Assembly: GCF_014652435.1 (NCBI RefSeq)
Contig: NZ_BMYU01000002.1
Span: forward strand, 124,001 to 188,000
DNA length: 64,000 nucleotides
Origin: Cognatundibacterium squillarum
GTDB taxonomy: Bacteria > Pseudomonadota > Gammaproteobacteria > Burkholderiales > Burkholderiaceae_D
Reading direction: 5' to 3'
Shown: positions 39,170 to 56,978 of the stretch, piece by piece
How positions within the stretch are numbered: position 1 is the stretch's first letter
Layout: each line of letters begins with the position of its first letter
Position numbers and translations under genes: made by a program
The notes under the pieces: generated by a model
Databases searched by the model: none
Told to the model about the DNA's origin: nothing
Seen by the model: only the letters and a program-made list of their open reading frames with translations

Positions 39170-39199
39170 GCGCAGAGAACGCCATAGAACGCCAAAACA

Positions 39200-39308
39200 C
39201 CCCAAATGCGGCATCCTGCACAGAAAAAACGGCATTTTTCGCGGATGTCGGCAGAAACAGTGGCGCTCCGGGCAGGTGTTTTTTTGCCCGGATGCGGATC
39301 TCTGCACA
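39200..39308 (+). repeat. Dispersed intergenic repeat, long subfamily, left copy of a near-identical pair
   Basis: 109 bp, identical to 53658-53766 except for one base (CTCTG versus CGCTG near the right end). Left end AAATGCGGCATCCTGCACAG and right end GATGCGGATCTCTGCACA are imperfect direct repeats of each other. Internal CCGGGCA/TGCCCGG can form a hairpin. It ends 7 bp before the CusR-type box. Confidence 0.92.
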
Positions 39309-39315
39309 ACAGCAT

Positions 39316-39335
39316 AAATGACAAGTTTGTCATTT
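39316..39335 (+). promoter_or_regulatory. CusR/CopR-type box of the two-component/phosphoesterase operon
   Basis: AAATGACAAGTTTGTCATTT: 9-bp perfect arms matching the known CusR/CopR consensus AATGACAA-N2-TTGTCATT. A -10 element TACAAT lies at 39355-39360 with no good -35, so the box centre falls at about -41.5, a class II activator position. The first gene of the operon starts 105 bp after the box start. Confidence 0.85.
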
Positions 39336-39420
39336 CACCGGCTTAGTGCGGCGTTACAATGAACCGGTACCAACCCGGCGTGTGCCGGACCTGATCCAGA
39401 AGATCTTTTTCGGAGTGCTT

Positions 39421-39837
39421 ATGTTGCCGGTTCATTTTGTTCGCTTGTGCCTGCCCGTGTTGGTGACACTGATGCCCTGCGCGTCTGCATTCGCGCAGAA
39501 TACGCCCCCTGCACCACCGAATCCCCGCGCTGTACCGCCTGCTTCAGCGCCACCGGCTGCGCTGAGCGCAGCACAATTGCAGAAAGTGAAAGAAATTCTC
39601 GCGCCGTACAAGGCGTCAAAACTCAGTGCAGATGATGCAAAACTGATTAAGCGGCAATTGCGTGACGCTGGTATGCGCCCCAGCCCTGCGCTGGAAGATG
39701 CGATGCGTGCAGCAGGTCTGCCATTGCAAAAACTGGATGAGCTGGATCCACGTCCGCCGGGGCCACCACCTGATGCGCCTCCTGCGGCTGTTCCGGCACC
39801 AACACCGGCATCGAAAGCGGCGGTCAGTCGTCGCTGA
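39421..39837 (+). CDS. Small secreted Pro/Ala-rich protein
   Basis: 138 residues. The start at 39421 has GGAG nearby and opens a signal peptide (LCLPVLVTLMPCASAFAQ). The Pro-rich linker is followed by LSAAQLQKVKEILAPYKASK and LSADDAKLIKRQLRDAGMRP, a small helical domain, and ends in another Pro-rich tail. No metal-binding Cys, Met or His cluster is seen. It leads the operon of the CusR/CusS-like pair, 13 bp before the regulator gene. Function unknown; an accessory periplasmic role is plausible. Confidence 0.75.
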   Translation: MLPVHFVRLCLPVLVTLMPCASAFAQNTPPAPPNPRAVPPASAPPAALSAAQLQKVKEILAPYKASKLSADDAKLIKRQLRDAGMRPSPALEDAMRAAGLPLQKLDELDPRPPGPPPDAPPAAVPAPTPASKAAVSRR

Positions 39838-39850
39838 AGGGCAGATTACG

Positions 39851-40534
39851 ATGAAGATTCTGCTGATTGAAGATGAAGCACGCATCGCGAATTTTGTGTG
39901 TGCCGGACTCGCTGGCCGTGGCTATACCATGTGTCATTGCAGCGACGGGCGCAGCGGTTTGCAGGCAGCGATGCAACGCACACATGACCTGATTCTGCTG
40001 GATGTGATGCTGCCGGAAATGGACGGGCTTACGCTGCTCAGAAAGTTACGCGAACAGGGAATTCTGACCCCGGTCATTCTGCTGACAGCCCGGAATGAAT
40101 TACAGGACCGAATCGAAGGATTAAATCTGGGTGCCGATGATTATCTTGCCAAACCATTTTTCGTCGAAGAGCTGGCTGCGCGGATACAGGCTATCCAGCG
40201 TCGCCTCAGTGGTGATCATCAGCATTTGCTGCAGGTCGGGCCTTTGCAGCTGGACCGGCTGAACCGTCAGGTCCGGTGTCATCAGCACGATATTGATCTG
40301 ACTTCCCGTGAGTTCACGTTACTGGAATTTCTGATGCGCTCAAATGGTCAGACGCTGACTCGCGGACAGATTCTCGAGCACGTCTGGGGCTACGATTTTG
40401 ATCCGAGTACCAATGTGGTGGATGTTTGTATCCGGCGATTACGCAGCAAAATTGCAGAGCTTGATCCGGATTTGTCTCCTATCGAGTCGGTGCGCGGTAC
40501 CGGCTATCGTTTCCGGACGGGAGTTTCCGTCTGA
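39851..40534 (+). CDS. OmpR-family response regulator, CusR/CopR-like
   Basis: 227 residues. The receiver domain is MKILLIEDEARIANFV with phospho-acceptor Asp51 in LLDVMLPEMDG and Lys in DDYLAKPF. The winged-helix domain has LTSREFTLLEFLMRSNGQTL, the recognition region NVVDVCIRRLRSKI and IESVRGTGYRF. Length and motifs match the CusR/CopR/PcoR subgroup. Two copies of the matching box occur in this module, one upstream of its own operon, so it is probably an autoregulated activator of both operons. Confidence 0.93.
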   Translation: MKILLIEDEARIANFVCAGLAGRGYTMCHCSDGRSGLQAAMQRTHDLILLDVMLPEMDGLTLLRKLREQGILTPVILLTARNELQDRIEGLNLGADDYLAKPFFVEELAARIQAIQRRLSGDHQHLLQVGPLQLDRLNRQVRCHQHDIDLTSREFTLLEFLMRSNGQTLTRGQILEHVWGYDFDPSTNVVDVCIRRLRSKIAELDPDLSPIESVRGTGYRFRTGVSV

Positions 40535-41973
40535 TGCGACTCACATTCCGCTTTAAGCTGTTTGTTGCATCGCTGTCGGTTGTGTCCATGCTGATGGCTG
40601 CCGTTTTGTGGGCTGGCTGGGCGGCATTGTTGCGTCAGGAACAGGATAGGCTGGATGCGAGACTGTGTCAGGAAGCCAGACGTGTCAGTCATGCAGAACG
40701 GCGGGACGAGTCTGCGCAGCGACTGGCGGCAGATATGGCAGCTAAACTGCACTTACCGTCTGCTGATCAACTGATGTTTCTTCAGCGGTTTCCGGATGGA
40801 AAAACCGGTATGCAATTCGGTCAGTGGCCAGCAGAGCTGCAAGTCACGGAGATCGTCCCGGAGCACGCTGGCCGCGACACCGTACAGCGTGACGGTGCCG
40901 GGCAGCCAGATTCCTGCCGTTTGAAAACCCGGCAATGGCAGCAAGTTTCATGGCGTGTGGCAGTGCTCACGGCCAGTGAAGGCGAAGGTCTGGTTGCTGC
41001 AGATCTGGCCGATACCGGTGCTGAGCTGCGCGAGGCAGTACAGCAGCAATTACCGCCGGTGCTGGCTCTGGCCTTGCTGCTGACGGGGGTTGCCGCGTGG
41101 TTACTGGCGGGGCTGGCCTTACGTCCGGTTAACCGTTTGCGCGAATCAATGCGCAGTCTGACTCCCAGAGATCTCGGGCAGCGGCTGAGTGATGCCGGGG
41201 CTGACGCAGAATTTGCGGAGCTCATTGCCACTTATAACAACATGCTTGAAAGGCTGGAAATCAGTTTTCATCAGGCTTCGCGTTTCTCGGGCGATGCAGC
41301 GCATGAGCTGAGAACGCCGCTGACCATTCTGCGCGGGCAGCTGGAACAGATTCTGAGCCAGACCAGTGATACCACGCGTCAATCTGAGCTGGCCGAGATT
41401 CTGGATCAGGTGGGCAAGCTCAACGGAATTACCCGGCGGCTGTTATTGTTATCGCGGGCAGATGCCGGTCAGTTACCACTCCATCCTGAATGGCTGAATC
41501 TCAGCGACTTACTGGATGATCTGATCAGTGATGCCCGGATGCTGGTCGCAAATCAGCAACTCGAAGCCAGCATTCCCCGGCAATTGCAACTGCAGGCTGA
41601 TAACGTGTTATTGCAGCAATTACTGAATAATCTGATCAGTAATGCGGTGCGCTATTGCTGCCCCGGCGGATGGATCCGAATCCATGCACAGCAGCGTGAT
41701 ACGGAGATGGTCGTGATGTTCAGTAATCAGTGTCTGCCGGTTCCGGCTGCTGAGCGTGCACGGTTTTTTGAACGCTTTTATCGCGCCGCCAATGCCGCAG
41801 GCCATGCGGATGGCAGTGGCCTCGGACTCAGTCTGGCGCTGGAAATTGCGCGGGCACATCACGGCAGCCTGCGTTTGCTGGACACCCCTGACAATGAAGT
41901 CAGTCTTGAGCTTCGCCTGCCGTTGACGCAAGCGCCGGACATCAGGCTGCCGGATGACAAAGATGTCATTTAA
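40534..41973 (+). CDS. Membrane sensor histidine kinase, CusS-like
   Basis: 479 residues; the start overlaps the stop of the regulator (TGATG). Two membrane helices (about residues 8-30 and 170-192) flank a periplasmic sensor domain. HAMP follows, then the H-box FSGDAAHELRTPLTIL with His257, the N-box LLNNLISNAVRYC and the G-box GSGLGLSLALEIA. The periplasmic loop lacks an obvious His/Met cluster like that of CusS, so the ligand is not certain to be Cu or Ag. Confidence 0.92.
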   Translation: MRLTFRFKLFVASLSVVSMLMAAVLWAGWAALLRQEQDRLDARLCQEARRVSHAERRDESAQRLAADMAAKLHLPSADQLMFLQRFPDGKTGMQFGQWPAELQVTEIVPEHAGRDTVQRDGAGQPDSCRLKTRQWQQVSWRVAVLTASEGEGLVAADLADTGAELREAVQQQLPPVLALALLLTGVAAWLLAGLALRPVNRLRESMRSLTPRDLGQRLSDAGADAEFAELIATYNNMLERLEISFHQASRFSGDAAHELRTPLTILRGQLEQILSQTSDTTRQSELAEILDQVGKLNGITRRLLLLSRADAGQLPLHPEWLNLSDLLDDLISDARMLVANQQLEASIPRQLQLQADNVLLQQLLNNLISNAVRYCCPGGWIRIHAQQRDTEMVVMFSNQCLPVPAAERARFFERFYRAANAAGHADGSGLGLSLALEIARAHHGSLRLLDTPDNEVSLELRLPLTQAPDIRLPDDKDVI

Positions 41974-42030
41974 GGCTGTCTGCAGCTGCATACACTCGTT
42001 CCTGACTGTTTATATCATCAGGAGACAACC

Positions 42031-42276
42031 ATGCTGCGCTCACTCTTCTTACGTCATTTTTCTTTCGCAATCCTCTTACTGCTGAGTTGTACCGCCGCGC
42101 TGGCGGGCACTGGCAAACACGCAGCCGCTAAGGCGCAGATTCAGGCAGATAAACAACAGCTCGCTGCTGATAAAGCCGCAGGTGCGCCCCGCTCAGTGAT
42201 TGAGGCTGATAAAGCGCGTTTGCAGGCCGACAAGGCTGCGGCACGCCGTGCGCGTCCGGTTCGCACTCAGCCCTGA
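42031..42276 (+). CDS. Small secreted Ala/Lys-rich protein
   Basis: 81 residues: signal peptide (cleavage near AALAGTG), then a single charged helix with repeated (Q/E)ADK: IQADKQQLAADKAAG, IEADKARLQADKAAARR. AGGAGA precedes the ATG. It lies between the kinase and the first phosphoesterase and is almost certainly co-transcribed. Function unknown; the repeats suggest a coiled-coil or polyanion-binding peptide. Confidence 0.72.
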   Translation: MLRSLFLRHFSFAILLLLSCTAALAGTGKHAAAKAQIQADKQQLAADKAAGAPRSVIEADKARLQADKAAARRARPVRTQP

Positions 42277-42301
42277 CCAGGATTGTCTGAAAGGAACTAC
42301 G

Positions 42302-44047
42302 ATGTTGCTTTGCTCCCGCTTTCGCCGCCGTAAAAGCCTGTTTTTTGCAGGCATAAGCCTGCTGAGTGTTCTTGCTGCCTGTGGTGGTGGCGGTACATCG
42401 TCAGGAGATACCAGTGGCGCTACGCCGCCGGTAAAAATCAGTCCGCCCGGTGCGCCGCAGAATGTACAGCTGACCAGTGGCGACAGTATGCTGAGTCTGC
42501 GTTTCAGTCCGCCGCTGAACGATGGAGGCGCACCTGTCAGCGCATACAACGGCAGTTGCACTGCTGATGGCCAGACACGCAGCGTCAGTGCAAGCACCGG
42601 GCCGTTGCTGATTGACGGTCTGCGCAACGGAACAACTTACACGTGTACCCTGACCGCACTTAACAGTGCCGGAAGCGGTCCGGCGGTCAGTATCAGTGGT
42701 ACGCCGGCAGCCATTATCAGTAACGGTGAATTTACGGGAAATATTGTGCTCGGAACACCGTCAGATACCAGTATTCATGCCAATGTTTATGCTGTCGCAC
42801 AGAGTGGCAGTATCAGTTTGCGCGCAGGAACCCGGTCCGGCATTTATGACATCAGCACACAGCCCGTTACCCTGAATGCGGGTCAGCCGGCTGACATTCT
42901 GCTGGACTCACTGAAACCGGATACCCGCTACTTCTATCGTCTGCAGTACCGCAGTACTGACGGCAGTATCTCTTCGACCAGTGACGAATACAGTTTTCAT
43001 ACAGCACGCGCTTCGGGTAGCAGTTTTGTATTTGCAATTCAGGGCGATTCTCATCCTGAGCGGCTGAATACACAATTTAATGATGCGCTGTATCAGCGGA
43101 CTTTACTGACCGCAGCTGCAGATCAGCCGGATTTTTACATTACCAGTGGTGATGATTTCAGTGTGGATACACTGGATCCGAATACGGTAACGAAAGATCA
43201 GGTGACTGGTCGCTATACCCTGCAGCGGCCTTACCTCGGCCTGATCGGACGTACTGCGCCGGTTTTCCTGGTGAATGGCAATCATGAACAGGCAGCACGG
43301 TATTTGCTGAATGGCACACCGGACAATGTGGCAGTCTGGGCTCAAACTGCGCGCAACCAGTATTTCTCACAACCGGCACCGGACCGCTTTTATTCCGGGA
43401 ATAACACGCAGGTACCCTTTATCGGTAACTTGCGCAATTACTTCGCCTGGACCTGGGGAGACGCCTTATTTGTTGTGATTGATCCCTACTGGGAGTCGCC
43501 GGTATGTGTTGATAACCCGTTTTACGGTGGCGTGAAGCGTTCAAATCTGTGGGATATCACGCATGGCGATACGCAGTATCAGTGGCTGAAAACCACACTG
43601 GAACAAAGCAAGGCGCGATACAAATTCGTTTTTGCACATCATGTGATGGGAACCGGTCGTGGCGGTATCGAACTGGCAAAAAGCTACGAATGGGGTGAAA
43701 CCAGTGCGCTGTTCGGCAGCAATCGTCCCGGCTGGACGATGCCGATTCATCAACTGATGGTGGCAAACAAGGTCAGTATTTTCTTCCAGGGGCATGATCA
43801 TATCTGGGTGCGCCAGCAACTGGACGGCGTGACCTATCAGACCTTATCAGAGCCGGCTGATCCTAATTACACGCTGTGGAATGCGGATGCGTATCTGAGT
43901 GGTGATAAATATCCGAATACCGGCTATACCCGCGTCAGCGTTTCACCCGCCGGTGTCAAAGTGGAGTACGTGCGCACCTATCTTCCGAAAGATGAGGGAC
44001 CGGGTAAGGTCAGTGGCAGCGTGGCGTTCAGTTATACCTTGCCATGA
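42302..44047 (+). CDS. Fn3-metallophosphoesterase lipoprotein (type A)
   Basis: 581 residues, AAGGA before the ATG. Lipobox SVLAAC; then an Fn3 domain (GAPQNVQLTSGDSMLSLRF ... LTALNSAGSGPA), then a purple-acid-phosphatase-type N-terminal sandwich, then the calcineurin-like domain. Metal ligands are visible in QGDSHPER, SGDDFSVD, VNGNHEQ, AHHVMGTGRG and FQGHDHIW. Probably a surface or periplasmic phosphoesterase. It forms a sequence pair with the fourth enzyme at 47321. Substrate unknown. Confidence 0.88.
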   Translation: MLLCSRFRRRKSLFFAGISLLSVLAACGGGGTSSGDTSGATPPVKISPPGAPQNVQLTSGDSMLSLRFSPPLNDGGAPVSAYNGSCTADGQTRSVSASTGPLLIDGLRNGTTYTCTLTALNSAGSGPAVSISGTPAAIISNGEFTGNIVLGTPSDTSIHANVYAVAQSGSISLRAGTRSGIYDISTQPVTLNAGQPADILLDSLKPDTRYFYRLQYRSTDGSISSTSDEYSFHTARASGSSFVFAIQGDSHPERLNTQFNDALYQRTLLTAAADQPDFYITSGDDFSVDTLDPNTVTKDQVTGRYTLQRPYLGLIGRTAPVFLVNGNHEQAARYLLNGTPDNVAVWAQTARNQYFSQPAPDRFYSGNNTQVPFIGNLRNYFAWTWGDALFVVIDPYWESPVCVDNPFYGGVKRSNLWDITHGDTQYQWLKTTLEQSKARYKFVFAHHVMGTGRGGIELAKSYEWGETSALFGSNRPGWTMPIHQLMVANKVSIFFQGHDHIWVRQQLDGVTYQTLSEPADPNYTLWNADAYLSGDKYPNTGYTRVSVSPAGVKVEYVRTYLPKDEGPGKVSGSVAFSYTLP

Positions 44048-44073
44048 GTGGCATTCTCAGACGGAGCAAATCC

Positions 44074-45855
44074 ATGCAAACAGGAAAAATTCCGGCATTT
44101 GCCGGTAGTCTGATACTCACTGCCTTGCTGAGCGCATGTGGTGGCGGAGGCGGCGGTGCGGACAGCGCGGGCAGTACATCCGGCGGCAGTGGGAATGGCA
44201 ATAACGCTGGCGGAAATGCGACCCTGCCCGGTGTGCCACAGTCTCTGGTTGCGACACCCGGTAATGCGCAGGCAACCCTGAATTTCAGTGCTCCCGCCAG
44301 TGATGGCGGATCACCGGTTCTGCGCTATGCAGTAAGTTGCAGCGGTGGCGGAACCAGCGTACAAAATACTGCAAATACGCCGCCGGTTGTGGTCACAGGT
44401 TTGAGTAACGGTACTGCATATCAATGCACGGTCAGTGCGGTCAATGCAGTTGGCAGTGGTCCTGCCGCCAGTGTGTCTGTCACTCCGCAGGCAGCGGTTT
44501 CGGGAACAGCTTTTCAGGGATCGCTGTTACTTGGCGCACCCTCTTCCGATGGCTTGATCATCAGCGTGTTGTCGGCATCACAGAATGGCAGCGTCGCCAT
44601 CAGTTACGGCCGAAATGCCGGCATTTACGAAGGGCAGACTGTATTCAGCACTTTACAGGCAGGCACACCGGCTAGAATCCGGCTCAGCGGGCTGCAGGCC
44701 GATCAGGCCTATTACTACCGCTTGCAGTATCAGGCGGCAGGCAGCACCCAGACCGTTGCCGGCAATGAGTACAGTTTCCGTACTGCACGATCATCGGGGC
44801 AGACGTTCAGCTTTACGATACAGGCAGATTCCCATCTTGATGAAAATTCGGATTTAAACCAGTACCAGCGCACACTGATGAATGTGCTCGCGGATAAACC
44901 CGACTTCCACATTGATCTGGGCGACACGTTTATGACGGAGAAACATACGGCACCATTCACGGCAGTGGTGCAGAGTGCGCCTGATCAGGCAACTGTACGT
45001 GCACGGTATGCTTATGAACGCGGTAACTTCGGCCTGATTTCTCATTCGGTACCGCTGTTTCTTGCGAATGGCAATCATGAAGGCGAAGCAGGCTGGCTGA
45101 ATAACGGTACTGCTGCCAGTCTGCCGGTATGGGCCACACTGGCAAGGCAGGAATTTTTTGCGAATCCTGCGCCGGACAGCTGGTTCAGCGGTGATCCGGT
45201 TGCGGAAGCCTTTGTCGGGCTAAGGCAATCCTGGTATGCATGGCAATGGGGTGATGCACAGTTTATTGTGCTTGATCCTTACTGGAACAGTATGACGCAA
45301 GCCAGCCGAGATGGCTGGAATCTGACCCTTGGCGACCGGCAATACCAATGGCTGACAGCGGTACTGGCGGCCAGTAAAGCGAAGTTTAAATTTATCTTTC
45401 TGCATAATCTGGTCGGTGGACTGGATGGACAAATGCGTGGTGGTATTGAAGCCGCACCTTTCTATGAATGGGGTGGAAAAAATGCGGATGGTACAGACGG
45501 ATTTGCTGCCCGCAGGCCCGGCTGGGCAATGCCGGTACATGCATTGCTGGTGAAAAATAAGGTGACAGCCGTTTTTCACGGCCATGACCACCTGTATGCG
45601 AAGCAGATTCTGGACGGTATTGTGTATCAGGAAGTGCCGCAACCCAGTGCGGTGAATACCGGCAGCGGGGCATCACTGGCAAGCACTTATCATTACAATT
45701 CCGGTACGATACTCAGCAGTGCGGGTCATATCCGCGTCACCGTAACACCAACCGGTGTAAAAGCAGAATATGTTCGTGCATGGTTACCTGCTGCAGAAAA
45801 CGCAAGCCGGAAAAATGCACAGATTGATGACAGCTGGACTGTTGCCGCACCTTAG
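44074..45855 (+). CDS. Fn3-metallophosphoesterase lipoprotein (type B)
   Basis: 593 residues from the ATG at 44074 (CGGAGC upstream); an ATG at 44044 that overlaps the previous stop is the alternative. Lipobox ALLSAC and a Gly-rich linker, Fn3 (APASDGGSPVLRYAVSC ... AVNAVGSGPAA), an acid-phosphatase-type sandwich, then the metal-binding domain: QADSHLDE, LGDTFMTEK, ANGNHEGEA, FLHNLVGG and FHGHDHLY. It differs from type A in the first motif and in the third (HN instead of HH). It pairs with the third enzyme. Confidence 0.88.
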   Translation: MQTGKIPAFAGSLILTALLSACGGGGGGADSAGSTSGGSGNGNNAGGNATLPGVPQSLVATPGNAQATLNFSAPASDGGSPVLRYAVSCSGGGTSVQNTANTPPVVVTGLSNGTAYQCTVSAVNAVGSGPAASVSVTPQAAVSGTAFQGSLLLGAPSSDGLIISVLSASQNGSVAISYGRNAGIYEGQTVFSTLQAGTPARIRLSGLQADQAYYYRLQYQAAGSTQTVAGNEYSFRTARSSGQTFSFTIQADSHLDENSDLNQYQRTLMNVLADKPDFHIDLGDTFMTEKHTAPFTAVVQSAPDQATVRARYAYERGNFGLISHSVPLFLANGNHEGEAGWLNNGTAASLPVWATLARQEFFANPAPDSWFSGDPVAEAFVGLRQSWYAWQWGDAQFIVLDPYWNSMTQASRDGWNLTLGDRQYQWLTAVLAASKAKFKFIFLHNLVGGLDGQMRGGIEAAPFYEWGGKNADGTDGFAARRPGWAMPVHALLVKNKVTAVFHGHDHLYAKQILDGIVYQEVPQPSAVNTGSGASLASTYHYNSGTILSSAGHIRVTVTPTGVKAEYVRAWLPAAENASRKNAQIDDSWTVAAP

Positions 45856-45865
45856 CCGGGGATCT

Positions 45866-47308
45866 ATGAAAAAACGCGATGTGATCAATGCCACACTGTG
45901 TGCAGCTTTGCTGAGTTTGCTGACCGCTGGACAACTGGCGGCACAAACCGCAACAGGACCGGATACAGAACAGAAAAATGGCAGGCGTGCCGGTCCGCCG
46001 CATCAGCCGCCGCCCTTCCCTGCTCCGGAAAATGCGGATGTGATCGTCGGCCGACCGTCAAGCGCATCCGTAACACTGAGTGTTCGGCGCAATGATGCAG
46101 ACGGCACTGCGGAATTGCTGTACTGGGCTGAGGGCAGCAATCCGGCTTCTGCCACGATAGCGGGTCCTTTTCCCTTAAGTCAGGCAGAACCGCGCAACCT
46201 GCATTTGCAGGGATTACGTGCTGATACGGTCTATTTCTATCAGTTAAGAGTATCAGGCCAGACCGGCAAATTACCGGAGGGGCGTTTCCGCACGGCCAGA
46301 TCTGCAGGTCAGCCTTTTCAGTTCACCATCACGGCCGATTCTCATCTGGATCAGAACACCAGTACCGCCTTGTATCGTGAAACACTGAATAATATCCGCC
46401 AGCGTGAGCCAGATTTTCACATTGATCTGGGCGATACCTTCATGACTGATAAGTATCCGTCGCGCGACGACGCGCTGCGCCAGTATCAGGCGCAGCGTAT
46501 CTTTTTCAGCAGTATGGCGGACCGGGTTCCGTTGTTTCTGGTACTTGGCAATCATGATGGTGAGGACGTGAAACTGCGGCGCGGCCCGGATAATCTGGCC
46601 GTCTGGGCAAATACTCAGCGACGGCGGTATTTTCCGAATCCGCAGCCGGACAGTTTTTACAGCGGCGCACCAGTACATGAAGGCGCATCCGCATTGGAAG
46701 ATTACTATGCGTGGCAATGGGGCGATGCGCAGATGATAGTTCTTAACCCTTACTGGTACGGGCCGGAGCGCCGTGCACCGGAGCGCTGGAATCTGTCACT
46801 GGGTGACCAGCAATACGCATGGCTGGAGCAAACGCTGCGCCAGAGTAAGGCGGCCTATATTTTTGTGTTCATTCATCAGTTAGCGGGTGGTGCAGACCGT
46901 CAGGGACGTGGTGGTGCGGAGGCGGTTCCGTTTGGTGAATGGGGCGGACTGAATGCAGACGGTACACCGGGTATGGCAGCGAATCGTCCGGGCTGGAAAG
47001 AGCCGGTACATGCCTTATTGCATCGTTATCGTGTCAGTGCGGTATTTCACGGGCACGATCATCTGTATGCCAGCCAGCAACGTGACGGAATTATTTATCA
47101 GGAAGTGCCGCAGCCTGCACACAGCGGTGGCGGCGATGAAAAATCGGCGACGGAATATGGTTATCTGAGCGGTACGGTACTGGCAAAAGCAGGATTTATG
47201 CAGGTCAGTGTCAGTCCGCAAATGGCGCGGGTTGCACTGTATCCGGCGGGTGCTGATACGTCGGCCGCACCGCTGCACAGTTATCAGATTGCGCCGCGCA
47301 AACCCTGA
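45866..47308 (+). CDS. Secreted metallophosphoesterase (type B, no Fn3)
   Basis: 480 residues. Signal peptide ending AGQLAAQ, no lipobox and no Fn3 domain; the acid-phosphatase-type sandwich starts soon after a Pro-rich linker (PPHQPPPFPAPENADVIVG). Metal-binding motifs are TADSHLDQ, LGDTFMTDK, LGNHDGED, FIHQLAGG and FHGHDHLY. Closest to the gene just upstream, so probably a tandem duplicate that lost Fn3 and lipidation. Gap of 10 bp to that gene. Confidence 0.88.
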   Translation: MKKRDVINATLCAALLSLLTAGQLAAQTATGPDTEQKNGRRAGPPHQPPPFPAPENADVIVGRPSSASVTLSVRRNDADGTAELLYWAEGSNPASATIAGPFPLSQAEPRNLHLQGLRADTVYFYQLRVSGQTGKLPEGRFRTARSAGQPFQFTITADSHLDQNTSTALYRETLNNIRQREPDFHIDLGDTFMTDKYPSRDDALRQYQAQRIFFSSMADRVPLFLVLGNHDGEDVKLRRGPDNLAVWANTQRRRYFPNPQPDSFYSGAPVHEGASALEDYYAWQWGDAQMIVLNPYWYGPERRAPERWNLSLGDQQYAWLEQTLRQSKAAYIFVFIHQLAGGADRQGRGGAEAVPFGEWGGLNADGTPGMAANRPGWKEPVHALLHRYRVSAVFHGHDHLYASQQRDGIIYQEVPQPAHSGGGDEKSATEYGYLSGTVLAKAGFMQVSVSPQMARVALYPAGADTSAAPLHSYQIAPRKP

Positions 47309-47320
47309 ACAGGATCCGTT

Positions 47321-48841
47321 ATGCAAAGCTTCAGCTTCCGCCGCACATGGTGTTCATTATGCTTACTTGCTGCGATGTATACACCGCAGTCTGCGTTGCA
47401 GGCACAAAATCAGGAAGATCCGCCATCGCAGGGACAACGCAAAGGACAGGGTAAACAGCGCACTGCGTCTTTACCCGTTGAAATACAGGCACAGCAACAG
47501 CTGTCGGTCATACTTGCCCGCCCTGCCACAGACCGCATCACGATGAATTTACTGGCGCAGGAAGACCAGCCGGTCAGCGTGATGTATGCAAGTGGCAGCG
47601 CTGAGCCGGTACGCAGTGCATCGTTACAGCTGAAGGCTGGCCAGCCTGCAGAATTGCTGATTTCCGGTTTGCTTCCTGCCCGGACTTACCACTATCGTTT
47701 GTGTACACCCCGCAATCACGATTGTGCTGATGCAGAAACGAAAGAAGAAACCGGTTTTTTCCGGACTGCCAAAGCGCCCGGGCAATCATTTATGTTTGCA
47801 CTGCAAGGCGACTCTCATCCTGAACGTGCACACCAGTTTGATGCGGCACTGTATGTACAGACGCTGCAGAGAGCAGCCTCTGCCGGACCGGATTTTTATC
47901 TGATGATGGGGGATGATTTCAGTGTCGATACTCTGCATGAACTGAACCGCGCTACTGTAATGCAGCGTTATCAGTATCAGCGTCCGTTTCTCGGCCTGAT
48001 AGGACGGTCTGCGCCTTTGTTTCTGGTCAACGGAAATCATGAACAGGCAGCGGCGGCGAATCTGAATGGCAGCGCAGAGAATGTCGCAGTCTGGGCGCAG
48101 AATGCACGTAATCAGTACTATTCTCAGCCAGCGCCGGATGCTTTTTATACCGGTAACAAAGAACCTGTGCCGCATATCGGTTTATTAAGAAATTACTTTG
48201 CATGGCACTGGGGCGATGCTTTATTTGTTGTGATCGATCCTTACTGGCACTCTGCCTCTGTGGTCGATAACAAGCCGGGAAAACATGAAAAAAGCGGCGA
48301 CAAACGGGGGCAGCGCGATCTGTGGGATATCACGCTCGGTGACAGCCAGTATCAGTGGCTGCGTCAGACCCTGGAAAGCAGTACGGCCACGTATAAATTT
48401 ATATTCAGTCACCATGTGCTGGGCACGGGGCGTGGCGGTACAGAACAGGCCGGGTTGTATGAATGGGGTGGAAAAGACAAGCGTGGTGTCAGTGAATTTG
48501 CGCAGCGTCGTCCCGGCTGGACTTTGCCATTGCACCAGTTATTTGTGAAGCACAAAGTGACTGCATTTTTTCAGGGCCATGATCATATTTTTGCGCATCA
48601 GGAACTGGACGGTGTGGTTTATCAGACGGTACCGGAGCCTGCGGATCCTGATTACAAGCTTTACTTTGCAGATGCTTACCGCAGTGGAAAACTGTTACCT
48701 AACTCCGGCCATGTGCGCGTGTATGTCGCTCCTGACAAAGTCCGTGTTGAGTATCTGCGCTCCTATCTTCCGAAAGATGTTTCGCCTGAGCGCACTGACG
48801 GCGAAGTAGCTTACAGCTACGAAATTCCGGCCCGTCGCTGA
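47321..48841 (+). CDS. Secreted metallophosphoesterase (type A, no Fn3)
   Basis: 506 residues with a signal peptide (WCSLCLLAAMYTPQSALQAQ) and a basic Gln-rich linker. Acid-phosphatase-type sandwich, then QGDSHPER, MGDDFSVD, VNGNHEQAA, SHHVLGTGRG and FQGHDHIF. The type A motifs and the LRNYFAWHWGDALFVVIDPY stretch match the first enzyme, at 42302. It lacks Fn3. Last gene of the first operon. Confidence 0.88.
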   Translation: MQSFSFRRTWCSLCLLAAMYTPQSALQAQNQEDPPSQGQRKGQGKQRTASLPVEIQAQQQLSVILARPATDRITMNLLAQEDQPVSVMYASGSAEPVRSASLQLKAGQPAELLISGLLPARTYHYRLCTPRNHDCADAETKEETGFFRTAKAPGQSFMFALQGDSHPERAHQFDAALYVQTLQRAASAGPDFYLMMGDDFSVDTLHELNRATVMQRYQYQRPFLGLIGRSAPLFLVNGNHEQAAAANLNGSAENVAVWAQNARNQYYSQPAPDAFYTGNKEPVPHIGLLRNYFAWHWGDALFVVIDPYWHSASVVDNKPGKHEKSGDKRGQRDLWDITLGDSQYQWLRQTLESSTATYKFIFSHHVLGTGRGGTEQAGLYEWGGKDKRGVSEFAQRRPGWTLPLHQLFVKHKVTAFFQGHDHIFAHQELDGVVYQTVPEPADPDYKLYFADAYRSGKLLPNSGHVRVYVAPDKVRVEYLRSYLPKDVSPERTDGEVAYSYEIPARR

Positions 48842-48880
48842 TGCCGCGGATACTGACGCACCCGTAACCGGATGTTTGCA

Positions 48881-48900
48881 AAATGACGAACTTGTCATTT
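48881..48900 (+). promoter_or_regulatory. Second CusR/CopR-type box
   Basis: AAATGACGAACTTGTCATTT, one arm base different from the box at 39316. The -10 TAGAAT at 48920-48925 lies at exactly the same distance as in the first promoter, and the start codon at 48986 is again 105 bp from the box start. Confidence 0.85.
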
Positions 48901-48985
48901 GCCGCTCAGAGGGATTTTCTAGAATGCAATCAATGTGCTGTCAGACAGCGCGCTTTGTCTTCTGAACTTAATCCGGAGTTTGATG

Positions 48986-50836
48986 ATGCTGATACGTCCT
49001 GCCTCTCAGGGTATTTCTGTGATACTCGCTTTGTTGCTGGCTGCCTGTGGTGGCGGTGCAGGTGGTGCCAGTACCGATAATGGTGCGCCTCAGGGGCCGG
49101 TTGTATCCGCGACGGTTCCGGGTACACCGCAGGGCCTGACAGCCACTGCCGGTGATGCCAGTGTCAGCCTGCAATTTACCGCGCCTGCCAGCGATGGCGG
49201 CAGCAAAATTCTCAGCTATCAGGCGACTTGCAATGCGGCACAAAGCACCGTCAGCACCAGCGGTACGGCCAGCCCCTTAACGCTGACCGGCATGACAAAT
49301 GGCACGACTTACAGTTGCAGTGTGCGGGCGGTCAATGCCGTAGGCAGCGGTACGGCCAGTTCCGCTGTCAGCGTCACACCGCAGGCAGCACAGCCGCCTT
49401 CGGCCGGTTTTACTCTCAGCAGTCTGGCCGGCACGAATGGTGCGGCAATGGCGGCGGATTACACCTGTGACGGTACCGGCTCCTCGATTCCTTTAAGCTG
49501 GAGCAATCTGCCGGCCGGTACGAAGGAGCTTGCCGTGCTGATGACGACTTTGCCGGGTGACGGCACGACCAAATGGAACTGGGTGCTGTATGGTATTCCC
49601 GCAAGCGTCAGCAGTCTGAAAAAAGACAGCTTCGGTATTGGTATCAACGGTGTCGGCAGTGACGGCCCGCAGGCAGCGTATCAGCCACCGTGTTCTCAGG
49701 GACCGGGGGCAAAAGTATACACACTGACGGTATATGCCTTGTCCGGCAGTCCGGTGCTGAATGTCCCGGCTGCGCAGGTTACCGGTTCTGTGCTCAGTGC
49801 TGCGATTGCGCCGCTGACACTCGGCAGCGCATCGATCAGCCTCAGTTTTACCCGGACTACCATGACGGGCAGCAGTACTGCCTGTCAGAATATCCGCAAT
49901 TCGATGGCAGCATCCGGCAGTGGCTATGCACTGGTCAGTTGCGATGCAAATTATGCCTATGTCAGTTCAACCGGCATCGCCACCCATACGATGATGAACG
50001 GGATTACTGCGACCAATCTGCAAGTGCCGACCGTACAGAATTTTCTGGGGGCAAATGGCTGGAAAATCCCGCTGAATCCTGCGATTGCTGCCACACCGAC
50101 TTCTGTTAACGACGGACCTGTCGGTGTTGCGATTAACGGGGTTCCGATCTTCAATCCCTGTAAGCAAGGCGGCTGTCAGTTTGGTGATACCAAAGTGCTG
50201 GGCGAACTCGATATCTGTAATGGTCACGCGGGCCGTGCAGATGATTACCACTACCATGCGGCGCCAGTCTGTCTGATGGCGGCTAAGCCAGCCAGTTACT
50301 GGGATACGCATCCGCTGGGCTGGGCGCTCGATGGATTTGCAATCTTCGGATACAACAACCCGGATGGCACAACTGCAACCCGCGACAATATCTGCGGCGG
50401 CAATACGGTTGCTGTCGCGAATGCACCGGCCGGCTACAGCTATCACGTGACGGATGCATCGCCCTATGTGTTGTCCTGTCTGCGCGGTACCCCTAGTCCT
50501 GATCTGGCAGGCCAGAGCGCCAAGTATGCGCCGATGCGGCAGCCTCCGGTAACGCCGTTCAGCGTCTCCGGCATGAGCTTAAGTACAGATCCGGCAGACG
50601 GTTATCAGGTATTGCGCTTCACATCAGCAAACAGTTTTGTGAGCACGGAGACCGGCAGCGACAGCTATACCAATGCAGCCGGTACTTACCAGATTCGCTA
50701 CAAAGTGCTGACCGGCAGCGAACTGGCCGCTGCACTGGCACAACCGAAAAATGCCGGAAAAAGCATATGCTGGAATTTTCAGTTTATGAATGGCAGCGGA
50801 ACAACAACGCAACCGACCATTGCCTATTGCCGATAG
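48986..50836 (+). CDS. Fn3-PEBP-YHYH lipoprotein
   Basis: 616 residues (ATG at 48986, with 48983 also possible; GGAG precedes both). Lipobox LLLAAC. An Fn3 domain follows that is very close to those of the phosphoesterases (APASDGGSKILSYQATC, VRAVNAVGSGTAS). Next is a PEBP/YbhB-like domain (SIPLSWSNLPAGTKELAVLM, WNWVLYGIPASVSSL) of about 150 residues. The C-terminal half is a YHYH domain: LDICNGHAGRADDYHYHAAP and LGWALDGFAIFGYNN. The His cluster could bind metal. This three-part architecture is unusual. Confidence 0.86.
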   Translation: MLIRPASQGISVILALLLAACGGGAGGASTDNGAPQGPVVSATVPGTPQGLTATAGDASVSLQFTAPASDGGSKILSYQATCNAAQSTVSTSGTASPLTLTGMTNGTTYSCSVRAVNAVGSGTASSAVSVTPQAAQPPSAGFTLSSLAGTNGAAMAADYTCDGTGSSIPLSWSNLPAGTKELAVLMTTLPGDGTTKWNWVLYGIPASVSSLKKDSFGIGINGVGSDGPQAAYQPPCSQGPGAKVYTLTVYALSGSPVLNVPAAQVTGSVLSAAIAPLTLGSASISLSFTRTTMTGSSTACQNIRNSMAASGSGYALVSCDANYAYVSSTGIATHTMMNGITATNLQVPTVQNFLGANGWKIPLNPAIAATPTSVNDGPVGVAINGVPIFNPCKQGGCQFGDTKVLGELDICNGHAGRADDYHYHAAPVCLMAAKPASYWDTHPLGWALDGFAIFGYNNPDGTTATRDNICGGNTVAVANAPAGYSYHVTDASPYVLSCLRGTPSPDLAGQSAKYAPMRQPPVTPFSVSGMSLSTDPADGYQVLRFTSANSFVSTETGSDSYTNAAGTYQIRYKVLTGSELAAALAQPKNAGKSICWNFQFMNGSGTTTQPTIAYCR

Positions 50837-50870
50837 ATACCATTCTGATCAAGGTTGAGGCCGAGAAAAT

Positions 50871-51458
50871 ATGAAAAAAAGTAATTTAAAGACGATTTTC
50901 TGCGCAACGCTGACAGCGATACTGTTGACTGCAGGTCCGGTTTGTTTTGCGCATGAAGCAGAAGTGAATAAAGCAACGCTGGTTTTGCGCGAGGGGAATC
51001 ACCTGTCGCTGAGCCTGTTCATGCGACTTGACGACAGCATGTATCGTATGAGTCTGAAAAAGACGACCTATCAGGAATTTCTACTGGCACATGCGTCAAT
51101 GCCTGCACAAGAATTTGCACGACGCTGGTTGCAGGTGCAGGAGCAATTGCAAAATGCGGTCGTGATCAGGGATAAGCAGAATCAGATCCTGAAACTGCGC
51201 AACTGGGTGTGGCCCACTCCGGACAAAGTGCAGGCGGTGATTCAGGAAAATCTGATGCAGGCAACGGTTGCTTCTGGTTCACATCAGCATACGCCTCTGC
51301 TGGAGATACGGGCTGAGGCCAGTGCAGTCGCAGCCGCAGCCGTGAGTAGTGTGACGCTGCAGGTGCACCCGGTCTGGCAACCTTTGCTAGTCGTCTCATA
51401 CCGTCCTGTTCAGACAGTGCTTGATATCGGCGAACCACCGGTCAGCATCCGGTTCTGA
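50871..51458 (+). CDS. Small secreted protein of unknown function
   Basis: 195 residues with signal peptide (TAILLTAGPVCFA, then HEAEVNKATLVLREGNHLSL). A beta-rich N-terminal half, a helix with YQEFLLAHASMPAQEFARRW, and a C-terminal strand set with PVWQPLLVVSYRPVQTV. It lies 34 bp after the YHYH gene and 67 bp before the TonB receptor gene, so it is probably a periplasmic partner of one of them. Family not recognised. Confidence 0.72.
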   Translation: MKKSNLKTIFCATLTAILLTAGPVCFAHEAEVNKATLVLREGNHLSLSLFMRLDDSMYRMSLKKTTYQEFLLAHASMPAQEFARRWLQVQEQLQNAVVIRDKQNQILKLRNWVWPTPDKVQAVIQENLMQATVASGSHQHTPLLEIRAEASAVAAAAVSSVTLQVHPVWQPLLVVSYRPVQTVLDIGEPPVSIRF

Positions 51459-51525
51459 ACTGGGTGGTCTGTACGAAGTACTGTGCGTTAAGTGTAGCGG
51501 AGCGCAATTTCTTTTCTGCCCCAAG

Positions 51526-53580
51526 ATGAAAAACAGTGCAAGTTTTAAGTTACTGTCGTTTGTTACACCATTCATGCTAGTGAATGCCGCGTTTGCCGAT
51601 GATCCGGCCATTCAGCGTATTCTTGTGGAAGGTTCGCGGACCAGTCAGATGGGCATCGCTGATACCGCCAGTCAGGGAGTTGTGTCAGCACGTGAGCTGG
51701 AGCAGCGTACCGTTTACCGACCAGGCGAAATTCTGGAGGCCGCACCCGGTCTAATTGTCAGTCAGCATAGCGGAGAGGGTAAAGCAAACCAGTTTTTTCT
51801 GCGCGGCTTGAATCTGGACCATGGCACCGATCTGGCTAGCTACGTCAATGACATGCCGGTCAATCAGCGCAGTCACGCGCACGGGCAAGGCTGGACGGAT
51901 CTGAACTTCCTGATCCCGGAACTGGTTGGACGTCTTGAGTACAGTAAGGGTCCTTACTCAGCACGTTCAGGCGATTTCTCATCTGCCGGCACAGCATCAA
52001 TTAGCTATATCAATCGTTTACCCGACAACCGATTGGTACTGAGTGGCGGTCAGAACGGATATCGTCGTGTTCTGCTGGCGGCATCATCCGTTCTTGGTGA
52101 CGGTAATGTACTGTATGCACTGGAATCGATGCGTAATGACGGACCATTTACCCGTGGTGATAACTATCGGAAATATAATGTTGTACTGCGATACAGCGAA
52201 GGCTACGCCGCCAATGGATGGAATATGACAGCGATGGTCTACGGCGCAAACTGGAAAGCGACGGACCAGATTCCTAAACGGGCCGTCGACCAGGGAATGC
52301 TGGGAAGGTTTGACGCGATCAATGCCAGCGATGGCGGCGCAGCGAACCGCCAGAGTTTGTCGGGTAGCTGGCGTCAGACGAGTTCCGGCTCTGTCAGCAA
52401 ATTCAATGCATATCTGATTCGGGGAAAACTGGATTTATTTTCTGATTTCACTTATTTCATGCGTGATCCGCTGAATGGTGATCAGTTTGCACAGCCTGAT
52501 CAGCGGGTAACATCCGGATTCGCTGCAAGCCATACCTGGCACAGTCACAATTCGATAGGTCTGGAGTCGGACTGGACCTTAGGCGTGACCGGGCAGAATG
52601 ATAATATCAGCAATGGTTTGTACCAAAGCAAGGCAAGGCAGCAGACCGCCATTATTCGCAGGGACAGAATTGTCGAAACCAGTGCTGCAGCGTATGTTGA
52701 GAATGCGACGCGCTGGACAGATACTTTCCGCACTGTCGCAGGCTTACGAGCAGACCGATACCGGTTCGATGTGAGAAGTGATTCAGCTGCCAATTCCGGA
52801 CGCGTGATGACCGGGATTGCCAGCCCCTCATGCAATCTGATTTTCGGACCCTGGGCGCAGACCGAGTTATATGTGAATGCCGGTCACGGTTTTCACAGTA
52901 ATGACGCACGCGGCACAGTTGCAAAAATTGATCCTGTCAATGGTGACAGCCTGAAACCAGTGCCGGGTCTGGTGCGTTCCAAAGGCGTGGAAATCGGGCT
53001 CAGAACCGAAATGTTTTCGCAGATGCAAACGACGGTATCGTTGTACCGCCTCGATTTTGATTCGGAGCTGGTATATGCAGGTGATGCCGGAACAACTGAA
53101 CCGGGCCGTCCGAGCCGGCGTTACGGCATTGAGTTCTCTAATTATCTGAAGTTAAATAAATGGCTTTCGATAGACTTGGATGCCGCTTATGCACGTGCAC
53201 GCGCGCGTGACCATGATCCTTTGGCAGGTGATTACGTCGAGGGTGCTGTTGAGGGTGTCGGGCAACTGGCGCTTTCGGTCGATCAGCTGGGGCCGTGGTC
53301 AGGTGCGCTCAGGCTGCGTTATTTTGGTCCGCGTCCGTTATCGACTGACAACCGTATCCGCTCCCATTCTGGCGTTACCCTGAATGGCCGACTGGCATAT
53401 CAGCTGCATCCGGCAGCACGTATTGAATTGGAAGGGTTTAACCTGACTAACCGTGCAGTATCGGCGATTGATTATTATTACGCTTCTCAGCTGCCGGGAG
53501 AGCCGCGCCCAGTCTATGATGTGCATTTTCATCCGCAGGAATCCAGATCATTCCGTATCAGTCTGATCGCAAGCTGGTGA
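51526..53580 (+). CDS. TonB-dependent outer-membrane receptor
   Basis: 684 residues; the start at 51526 opens a signal peptide (FVTPFMLVNAAFADD). The TonB box region is IQRILVEGSR. The plug domain has RPGEILEAAPGLIVSQHSG, FFLRGLNLDHGTDLASYVND and RLEYSKGPYSARSGDF. A 22-strand barrel follows and the last residue is Trp (LIASW). As the last gene of the second CusR-box operon it should import the released product or a metal complex. Ligand not deducible. Confidence 0.92.
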   Translation: MKNSASFKLLSFVTPFMLVNAAFADDPAIQRILVEGSRTSQMGIADTASQGVVSARELEQRTVYRPGEILEAAPGLIVSQHSGEGKANQFFLRGLNLDHGTDLASYVNDMPVNQRSHAHGQGWTDLNFLIPELVGRLEYSKGPYSARSGDFSSAGTASISYINRLPDNRLVLSGGQNGYRRVLLAASSVLGDGNVLYALESMRNDGPFTRGDNYRKYNVVLRYSEGYAANGWNMTAMVYGANWKATDQIPKRAVDQGMLGRFDAINASDGGAANRQSLSGSWRQTSSGSVSKFNAYLIRGKLDLFSDFTYFMRDPLNGDQFAQPDQRVTSGFAASHTWHSHNSIGLESDWTLGVTGQNDNISNGLYQSKARQQTAIIRRDRIVETSAAAYVENATRWTDTFRTVAGLRADRYRFDVRSDSAANSGRVMTGIASPSCNLIFGPWAQTELYVNAGHGFHSNDARGTVAKIDPVNGDSLKPVPGLVRSKGVEIGLRTEMFSQMQTTVSLYRLDFDSELVYAGDAGTTEPGRPSRRYGIEFSNYLKLNKWLSIDLDAAYARARARDHDPLAGDYVEGAVEGVGQLALSVDQLGPWSGALRLRYFGPRPLSTDNRIRSHSGVTLNGRLAYQLHPAARIELEGFNLTNRAVSAIDYYYASQLPGEPRPVYDVHFHPQESRSFRISLIASW

Positions 53581-53657
53581 TCCGTATATGCGGAGGCCCT
53601 CATGCCCGGCAGAGTCGGTGCAGTTTGTCCGGGATGGTCCGCATCAGCGTCTAAATA

Positions 53658-53766
53658 CCCCAAATGCGGCATCCTGCACAGAAAAAACGGCATTTTTCGC
53701 GGATGTCGGCAGAAACAGTGGCGCTCCGGGCAGGTGTTTTTTTGCCCGGATGCGGATCGCTGCACA
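53658..53766 (+). repeat. Dispersed intergenic repeat, long subfamily, right copy of a near-identical pair
   Basis: 108 of 109 bases match 39200-39308, same orientation. It lies between the convergent 3' ends of the two TonB receptor genes. Together the two copies bracket the whole 39.3-53.6 kb module. Confidence 0.92.
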
Positions 53767-56567: not shown

Positions 56568-56978
56568 CGCACTTTCTCCGGTAACCGAATGGATTTCGAA
56601 TGTGCCGGAAAATCTCCGGCAGCTGCAGATTTCACTGTACACGATGCGCTTCAGGGACTTTTCATTCGCTGATGAAATTGCAACACAAAAATCGCATTTC
56701 CAGCCAGTCTGCAGGTAAAAACGCGACGTCCGGCACCGCATGTGCAACGGTGTTCAGGATACGGACAGTATCAGTCGCAGCACCTTGCCCGAGCCGTTTT
56801 CGGTCATTTTTAGCCAGAATGCGGCATTCAGCACAGAAAAAAGTGGGTTATTCACGGACGTCCGCAGAAACAGTGGGCGAGCGGGCAGGTGTAAAAATGG
56901 CCGGATGCGGAGTCCGGCACAATAGTGGGGGACGTGGCCGCTGCAGTTCAGGGGATAATGCAGCGACCACATAACCGC
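56568..56978. other. Intergenic region with a dispersed-repeat copy
   Basis: Non-coding, between the DoxX start and the S41 protease stop, both on the minus strand. It carries the repeat copy at 56818-56922 and the DoxX promoter. Nothing else was recognised. Confidence 0.6.
56818..56922 (+). repeat. Dispersed intergenic repeat, long subfamily
   Basis: Starts AATGCGGCATTCAGCACAGA and ends GATGCGGAGTCCGGCACAA. Its last 62 bases, from GTCCGCAGAAACAGTGGGCG on, are identical to those of the copy at 63481-63586. Confidence 0.9.

Follow-up and report, generated by a model that had tools for sequence, protein, structure and literature searches.

A CusR-type regulator and a conserved cluster of surface proteins

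In a window of 64,000 nucleotides from Cognatundibacterium squillarum (positions 124,001 to 188,000 of contig NZ_BMYU01000002.1, which is contig 2 of a 4.19 Mb genome in 20 contigs), we analysed a module of eleven open genes that follow one another on the forward strand between two copies of a 119-nt repeat. In order, they encode a small protein (small1), a response regulator, a sensor kinase, a second small protein (small2), four metallophosphoesterases (MPE1 to MPE4), an fn3-PEBP-YHYH protein, a 195-aa secreted protein and a TonB-dependent receptor. Sequence comparison indicated that the cluster is real, that its core is conserved and that parts of it recur together across many bacterial phyla. 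Alongside its two-component pair, the cluster has three promoters marked by a CusR-type palindrome, and the strict form of this pattern occurs nowhere else in the genome. We propose, at a little under an even chance, that the module is a self-contained surface regulon responsive to copper, or to a similar soft metal or thiol. An earlier note on this DNA had listed the same eleven genes and families; all eleven were indeed open and in this order, and Pfam supported the regulator, the kinase, the enzymes, the YHYH protein and the receptor, while small1, small2 and the 195-aa protein each scored below the cut-off of every family scanned.

Three boxes at the promoters of the module

Box 1 (AAATGACAAGTTTGTCATTT, 39316..39335) lies about 85 bases upstream of small1, and another box (AAATGACGAACTTGTCATTT, 48881..48900) about 82 bases upstream of the YHYH gene. 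A third (41952..41971) is located about 60 bases upstream of small2, within the end of the kinase gene, and all three are thus found some 60 to 85 bases ahead of start codons. When the genome was scanned for AAATGACRANNTTGTCATTT with up to 3 mismatches, only the sites at 39316 and 48881 matched perfectly (one of them with 1 mismatch when read in reverse), and every other match, including the site at 41952, had 3 mismatches. The pattern ATGACRNNNNYGTCAT, composed after the sites had been seen, matched the genome three times (39318, 41954 and 48883), always in the module, compared with 2 matches of a reversed-pattern control; in the window, 3 matches were found vs. 0.04 expected. The same box had been described as opening each of two operons. 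The boxes at 39316 and 48881 are real, but the one at 41952 had been overlooked, so that three boxed units, at 39421-41973, 42031-48841 and 48983-53580, are likely in place of the two operons.

In the available part of PMC11195947, the preferred site of Escherichia coli CusR is given as AAAATGACAAnnTTGTCATTTT. Box 1 agrees with it at 18 of 20 specified positions, the two outermost being different; the earlier proposal of a shared regulator box is borne out, with a site of CusR type. Sites like AAAATGACAANNTTGTCATTTT, as expected at the target promoters of a CusRS-type copper/silver system, were present at the promoters concerned: the genome holds three related sites, all in the module. We also surveyed the window together with 84 related loci (85 sequences, 1.37 Mb), using mononucleotide shuffles as the control. 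The strict pattern ATGACRNNNNYGTCAT was found 13 times, compared with 0.33 in the shuffles: three times in the window, four times in L028, once each in L021, L026, L027, L083 and L135, and once, as a stray match, in L036. Twelve of these matches, located before the regulator, MPE1 or YHYH gene, belong to seven of the nine sequences with an orthologous regulator (the window and eight relatives at 58-68% identity). With the window excluded, strict boxes occur at module genes in six of the eight relatives; among those with an orthologous regulator, L023 presents half-sites at the correct spacing and L138 has no strict match. L028 shows the same layout as the window, with boxes before the regulator, before the YHYH gene and before the enzymes.

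The response regulator (39851..40534, +; Pfam Response_reg and Trans_reg_C) is of the OmpR type and CusR/HprR-like, and the kinase (40534..41973, +) possesses HAMP, HisKA and HATPase_c domains. For both proteins, heavy-metal subfamilies were the best match. The regulator is the top match of the genome to TIGR01387, and no regulator of this genome passes the cut-off of that family. In an alignment of eight kinases, which omits the L021 kinase (its ORF was called in another frame), two cysteines, Cys45 and Cys128, are invariant in the stretch that separates the membrane helices. The pair shares with CusRS and HprRS of E. coli the OmpR-type regulator, the HAMP kinase and the palindrome, but it adjoins surface phosphoesterases and a YHYH protein rather than cusCFBA or msrPQ. 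Searches of plasmids with the kinase gave no match at 1e-30.

Co-occurrence of the module genes in other genomes

A scan with an alignment of the four enzymes revealed at least 461 relatives, of which the best 80 loci were kept, nearly all from metagenome-assembled genomes. Neighbours were counted by tblastn (1e-4) within 6 kb of an enzyme; these counts are lower bounds, some contigs being short. At least two enzymes were present in 57 of the 80 loci. YHYH was found in 33, a DUF1566-like protein (labelled by eye) in 27, PEBP in 19, a protein of no family (c3) in 18, and c8, an LTXXQ-type protein (PF07813), in 15. The regulator was matched in 14 loci and the kinase in 11, several regulator matches being weak (30-40%) and possibly unrelated, while HupE was found near 10 cassettes and small1 near 2. 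The family of the 195-aa protein was within this distance in 8 loci and anywhere in the locus in nine, all nine of which also contain YHYH.

An independent sample consisted of 195 genomes of the family, including that of C. squillarum. Enzymes (E up to 1e-30) were detected in four and YHYH in eight; three genomes have both, adjacent in every case (hypergeometric P = 1.8e-4, relatedness ignored), and in the remaining five with YHYH no such enzyme was detected. The module is sporadic within the family. At a second locus of G176, a genome of the same genus, DUF4214, Metallophos and YHYH domains are fused in one 1125-aa frame (L136 7794-11171, -), beside a HupE permease gene (L136 11403-12515, +) encoding a protein in which the signal peptide is followed by A-H. 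The frequency of YHYH near the enzymes, its presence in three of the four enzyme genomes and this fusion argue that the parts belong to one system, as had been supposed when the eleven genes were called one functional module. Co-occurrence elsewhere held for the enzymes with YHYH but not for the receptor.

In Bacteroidetes (L059 and L064), the order is an ECF-type sigma factor, a further ORF, a Metal_resist protein (PF13801 above the cut-off in L064), two enzymes, YHYH and HupE, and a Chloroflexota plasmid carries a regulator, a kinase, a c8-like protein, PEBP and two enzymes. In G069, the fourth enzyme genome, an fn3-CCP_MauG protein stands in the place of YHYH; in L138 (6095-8824, -), the protein at that position of an otherwise similar cassette is a CCP_MauG haem protein with three fn3 domains. 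In L083 (14950-16659) and L135 (16792-18487), the module converges on a gene resembling those of PiT phosphate transporters and its DUF47 partner, as judged by eye.

Two A/B pairs of metallophosphoesterases

The four enzymes, MPE1 (42302..44047), MPE2 (44044..45855), MPE3 (45866..47308) and MPE4 (47321..48841), all on the + strand, scored above the Metallophos cut-off and possess five metallophosphoesterase motifs (DSH, GD, GNH[DE], H and GHDH); by sequence they are members of the calcineurin-like metallophosphoesterase superfamily. MPE1 and MPE2 alone have fn3 domains, together with a lipobox and a sub-threshold N domain of purple acid phosphatases (PAPs), while MPE3 and MPE4 appear to be secreted, the N-termini having been judged by eye. 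PAPs were the closest solved structures by profile (E 3.3e-6), and like PAPs and PhoD-like phosphatases, the enzymes have a calcineurin-like catalytic domain, with matches to the PAP N domain and PhoD below the cut-off. The motifs of PAPs are DxG and GDxxY. Since motif I of the window enzymes is DSH and the PAP tyrosine is absent from their motif II (GDTFM/GDDFS), an assignment to the PAPs was rejected.

A tree built with a quick method from 142 catalytic domains separated the type A rows from the type B rows, with one change per group; a sequence motif served to assign the types, and 71 rows are unlabelled. MPE1 (A) and MPE2 (B) make up pair I, and MPE3 (B) and MPE4 (A) pair II. MPE3 clusters with sequences from L138, L028 and L057, and so does MPE4 (support 99 and 98, respectively), both apart from MPE1 and MPE2. 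A tandem duplication was rejected on this ground: the phosphoesterases, which the earlier note had treated as four equivalent enzymes, are by this phylogeny two old A/B pairs and not local duplicates. The three loci related to MPE3 and MPE4 all have c8, and relatives of MPE1 and MPE2 adjoin YHYH in proteobacterial loci and c8 in loci of Geobacteraceae and Holophagaceae, e.g., L029, L030, L034 and L036. Both pairs are present in the window and in L028, in the order A-B-B-A. Elsewhere, L041 (1-11426) contains very long enzyme ORFs of 2069 and 1667 aa, and L096 (5242-11380) has four consecutive enzyme genes.

Putative metal-binding proteins and the TonB receptor

The fn3-PEBP-YHYH protein (48983..50836, +) has a lipobox and Pfam fn3, PBP (57.8 bits) and YHYH domains; the YHYH match (PF14240) reached 68.9 bits against a cut-off of 25, and the YHYH motif is present. 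Across 29 aligned YHYH rows, a D, an H, YHYH and DG are invariant. The available portion of PMC7824862 describes phage YHYH proteins with conserved His and Asp residues, predicted to be zinc binders and hydrolases. The invariant D/H set fits the metal-site prediction made there, and the PEBP-YHYH protein probably binds metal. It shares the YHYH domain and these residues with the phage proteins, but differs from them in being a lipoprotein that also carries fn3 and PEBP domains, not a tail protein. In the structure model (pLDDT 77.2), all significant Foldseek matches were to the PEBP half, so no fold could be assigned to the YHYH domain itself. Separate PEBP and YHYH genes adjoin on plasmids of Rhodobacterales (L182 6926-10348 and L183 6322-7948), and the window protein has the appearance of two such neighbours joined into one. 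Almost no literature was found on the YHYH family.

The AlphaFold2 model of the 195-aa protein (50871..51458, +) had a pLDDT of 80.2 from 7 alignment rows. Foldseek against the PDB returned one significant match, 9gce (E 6.7e-5, prob 1.00, TM 0.51/0.58), the next having an E of 0.09. According to the accessible part of PMC12537917, 9GCE shows, with copper bound, the Ang-1 domain of a HupE/UreJ-2 protein. The domain is reported to bind copper through His1 and Asn41 with a Kd of 74 nM, its second and third strands being separated by three helices; DUF6702 is described there as another N-terminal-His metal binder. The modelled 195-aa protein likewise has three helices between strands 2 and 3. With cleavage read by eye, its equivalent of the mature His1 is His28, and 12 of the 13 members of the family, the window included, have A-H at this place, just past the signal peptide, the exception being the second copy in L041. 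The protein probably begins with the same N-terminal His as Ang-1. Glu69, invariant in the 7 rows, would be mature residue 42 and is a candidate second metal ligand. Unlike Ang-1 and DUF6702 proteins, the window protein is free-standing, with neither a permease domain nor detectable sequence homology, and HupE_UreJ_2 had no match in its own genome.

The TonB-dependent receptor (51526..53580, +; Pfam plug and barrel) had been included in the conserved set. This could not be maintained: none of the 80 cassettes has a relative of it nearby, other TonB-type genes being seen by eye in L025, L042 and L082, and we rejected it as a core part. Relatives are common in the family (108 of the 195 genomes, E up to 1e-60), and the receptor is probably a local addition to the module. 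It was called in 10 of 12 fetched stretches. M1-type and DUF6702-like genes adjoin the receptor by eye in L171, L176, L177 and L179, with both confirmed by Pfam in L171, and the gene of the 195-aa protein adjoins it in the window in the same manner. In 8 of the 31 genomes with both, a receptor relative has a HupE match no more than 7 kb away, six of the eight cases involving a more distant receptor relative (47-52% identical). These DUF6702-like and HupE neighbours suggest that receptors of this clan tend to be encoded near N-terminal-His metal proteins, here near an Ang-1-like one.

Possible function of the module

The link to metals, assumed earlier from the families, is better supported than before by the CusR-type box, the Ang-1-like predicted fold and the presence of genes for Metal_resist, LTXXQ and HupE proteins next to some of the relatives. 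In the scenario that we propose, the kinase would use its invariant pair of periplasmic cysteines to sense a thiol-reactive metal such as copper, or else an oxidant, and the phosphorylated regulator would turn on the three units. The output would consist of the two A/B pairs of surface metallophosphoesterases, the PEBP-YHYH protein, the Ang-1-like N-terminal-His metal binder and the receptor. The enzymes might cut phosphate esters at the cell surface, metal-holding ligands among them; the Ang-1-like protein might capture the freed metal, which would be buffered or passed on, and the receptor may serve the same trade in the present genome. The direction could be either detoxification or acquisition. 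A bolder version, which we regard as rather unlikely, is that of a phylum-crossing extracellular system in which A/B enzyme pairs and a YHYH metalloprotein, in one case joined in a single chain, act together to strip phosphate (or sulfate, with swapped-in partners) from metal-holding organic ligands, letting an N-terminal-His protein and a permease or receptor take the metal, with the core driven by CusR-type or, at some loci, ECF/Metal_resist-type regulators.

Several results weigh against a copper or soft-metal regulon. The ligands for metal in the sensor domain of CusS are His and Met residues, and in the eight aligned kinases neither is invariant anywhere in the sensor region; in addition, the regulator (TIGR01387, 227.5 bits) and the kinase (TIGR01386, 229.3 bits) score under the curated heavy-metal cut-offs (279.2 and 292.55), so that a strictly CusS-like sensor, as first described, was not borne out. 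The likeness to Ang-1 lies in a predicted fold. Sequence profiles linked the 195-aa protein to no PDB chain and failed to relate it to HupE N-domains (hhalign prob 0.6, with 21 domains, 20 from 25 loci fetched plus that of L136, one start being doubtful), and a relationship to DUF6702, suggested by its place before the receptor, was rejected (prob 1.5). The coupling of box and module also varies: G176 has 5 strict sites, only 1 of them at its own module; G060, whose module lacks such a regulator, has 3 but 0 at the module; and the module of G069 has the regulator, yet the genome has no strict site. Furthermore, 66 of the 80 loci had no regulator match within 6 kb, Metal_resist (5/80) and ECF (3/80) matches were few, and a sulfatase is found in 18 and an arylsulfotransferase in 14 of the 80 cassettes.

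The last observation, together with the four phosphoesterases, would also suit a nutrient system scavenging phosphate and sulfate esters under a borrowed CusR-type regulator. We consider this improbable: Pho boxes showed no excess in the 64 kb (6 matches with 3 mismatches vs. 5.26 expected), the box is of the CusR type and metal-type partners occur in several loci. An envelope redox or thiol stress regulon, in which an HprRS-like cysteine pair senses oxidants and LTXXQ-type proteins and the enzymes repair or remodel the surface, appears distinctly unlikely. It would account for the two invariant cysteines, the LTXXQ-type partners and the fn3-CCP_MauG protein replacing YHYH in the G069 cassette, and the accessible part of PMC9302797 states that HprR, of the H2O2/HOCl system, shares the recognition sequence of CusR; the site that it names for E. 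coli, CATTACAAAATTGTAATG, is not the same as the module boxes. Both points also weigh against the regulon that we propose. However, the Ang-1-like fold, HupE and the Metal_resist partners point to metals, and the cysteine pair may merely form a structural disulfide.

Detoxification by mineral trapping is a further alternative, in which induced surface phosphatases would free phosphate and so precipitate copper or another metal outside the cell, the YHYH and Ang-1-like proteins binding the rest without import. CusR-type systems respond to metal excess, the enzymes appear to be lipid-anchored or secreted, and the cassettes of L083 and L135 converge on the PiT-like transporter and DUF47 genes. 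Nevertheless, the receptor points inwards, none of the 11 genes is an efflux gene, and HupE permeases and Ang domains are interpreted as uptake parts in the portion of PMC12537917 available; we judge this alternative unlikely.

Among the literature matches listed, no paper describes the module, most subscription journals being outside the coverage; the kind of system, a metal-type two-component regulon, is known, while its effector set is undescribed among these matches. The module gives the YHYH family a genetic partner in the paired phosphoesterases, together with a regulator and a signal that can be put to the test, and it connects copper-type sensing with surface phosphoester cleavage, two subjects usually kept separate. 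The modelled fold also suggests that a recently described copper-binding domain may occur as a free secreted protein. The cassette is present in several phyla, including some lake or pond genomes as judged by their titles, and may bear on the joint handling of metals and organic phosphate.

Small genes, boundaries and flanks of the module

Small1 (39421..39837, +) and small2 (42031..42276, +) are secreted proteins as judged by eye and match no family. In other phyla, LTXXQ-type c8 proteins have an N-terminal part similar to small1 (blastp 36-43%, in ORFs of L049, L058, L077 and L080). The interval studied ends at the two 119-nt repeat copies (39190..39308 and 53648..53766), which belong to a dispersed repeat that gave 40 scored matches genome-wide and has a third window copy at 56803-56921. 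Because the flanking copies are 97-98% alike (97% between these two stretches), whereas the next best genome copy reaches 84%, the block could be gained or lost through recombination between them. An empty-site comparison gave 0 of 29 other genomes of the genus with close relatives of both flank proteins tried. The G+C content (module 0.53-0.56, right flank 0.56-0.58, left flank 0.48-0.53) is not telling, and no RNA families or tRNAs were detected in the window. A TonB-siderophore-type barrel protein (53787-55826, -), below the cut-off and with no Pfam plug match, converges on the module; of the 29 other genomes searched from the genus, 2 have relatives with >50% identity.

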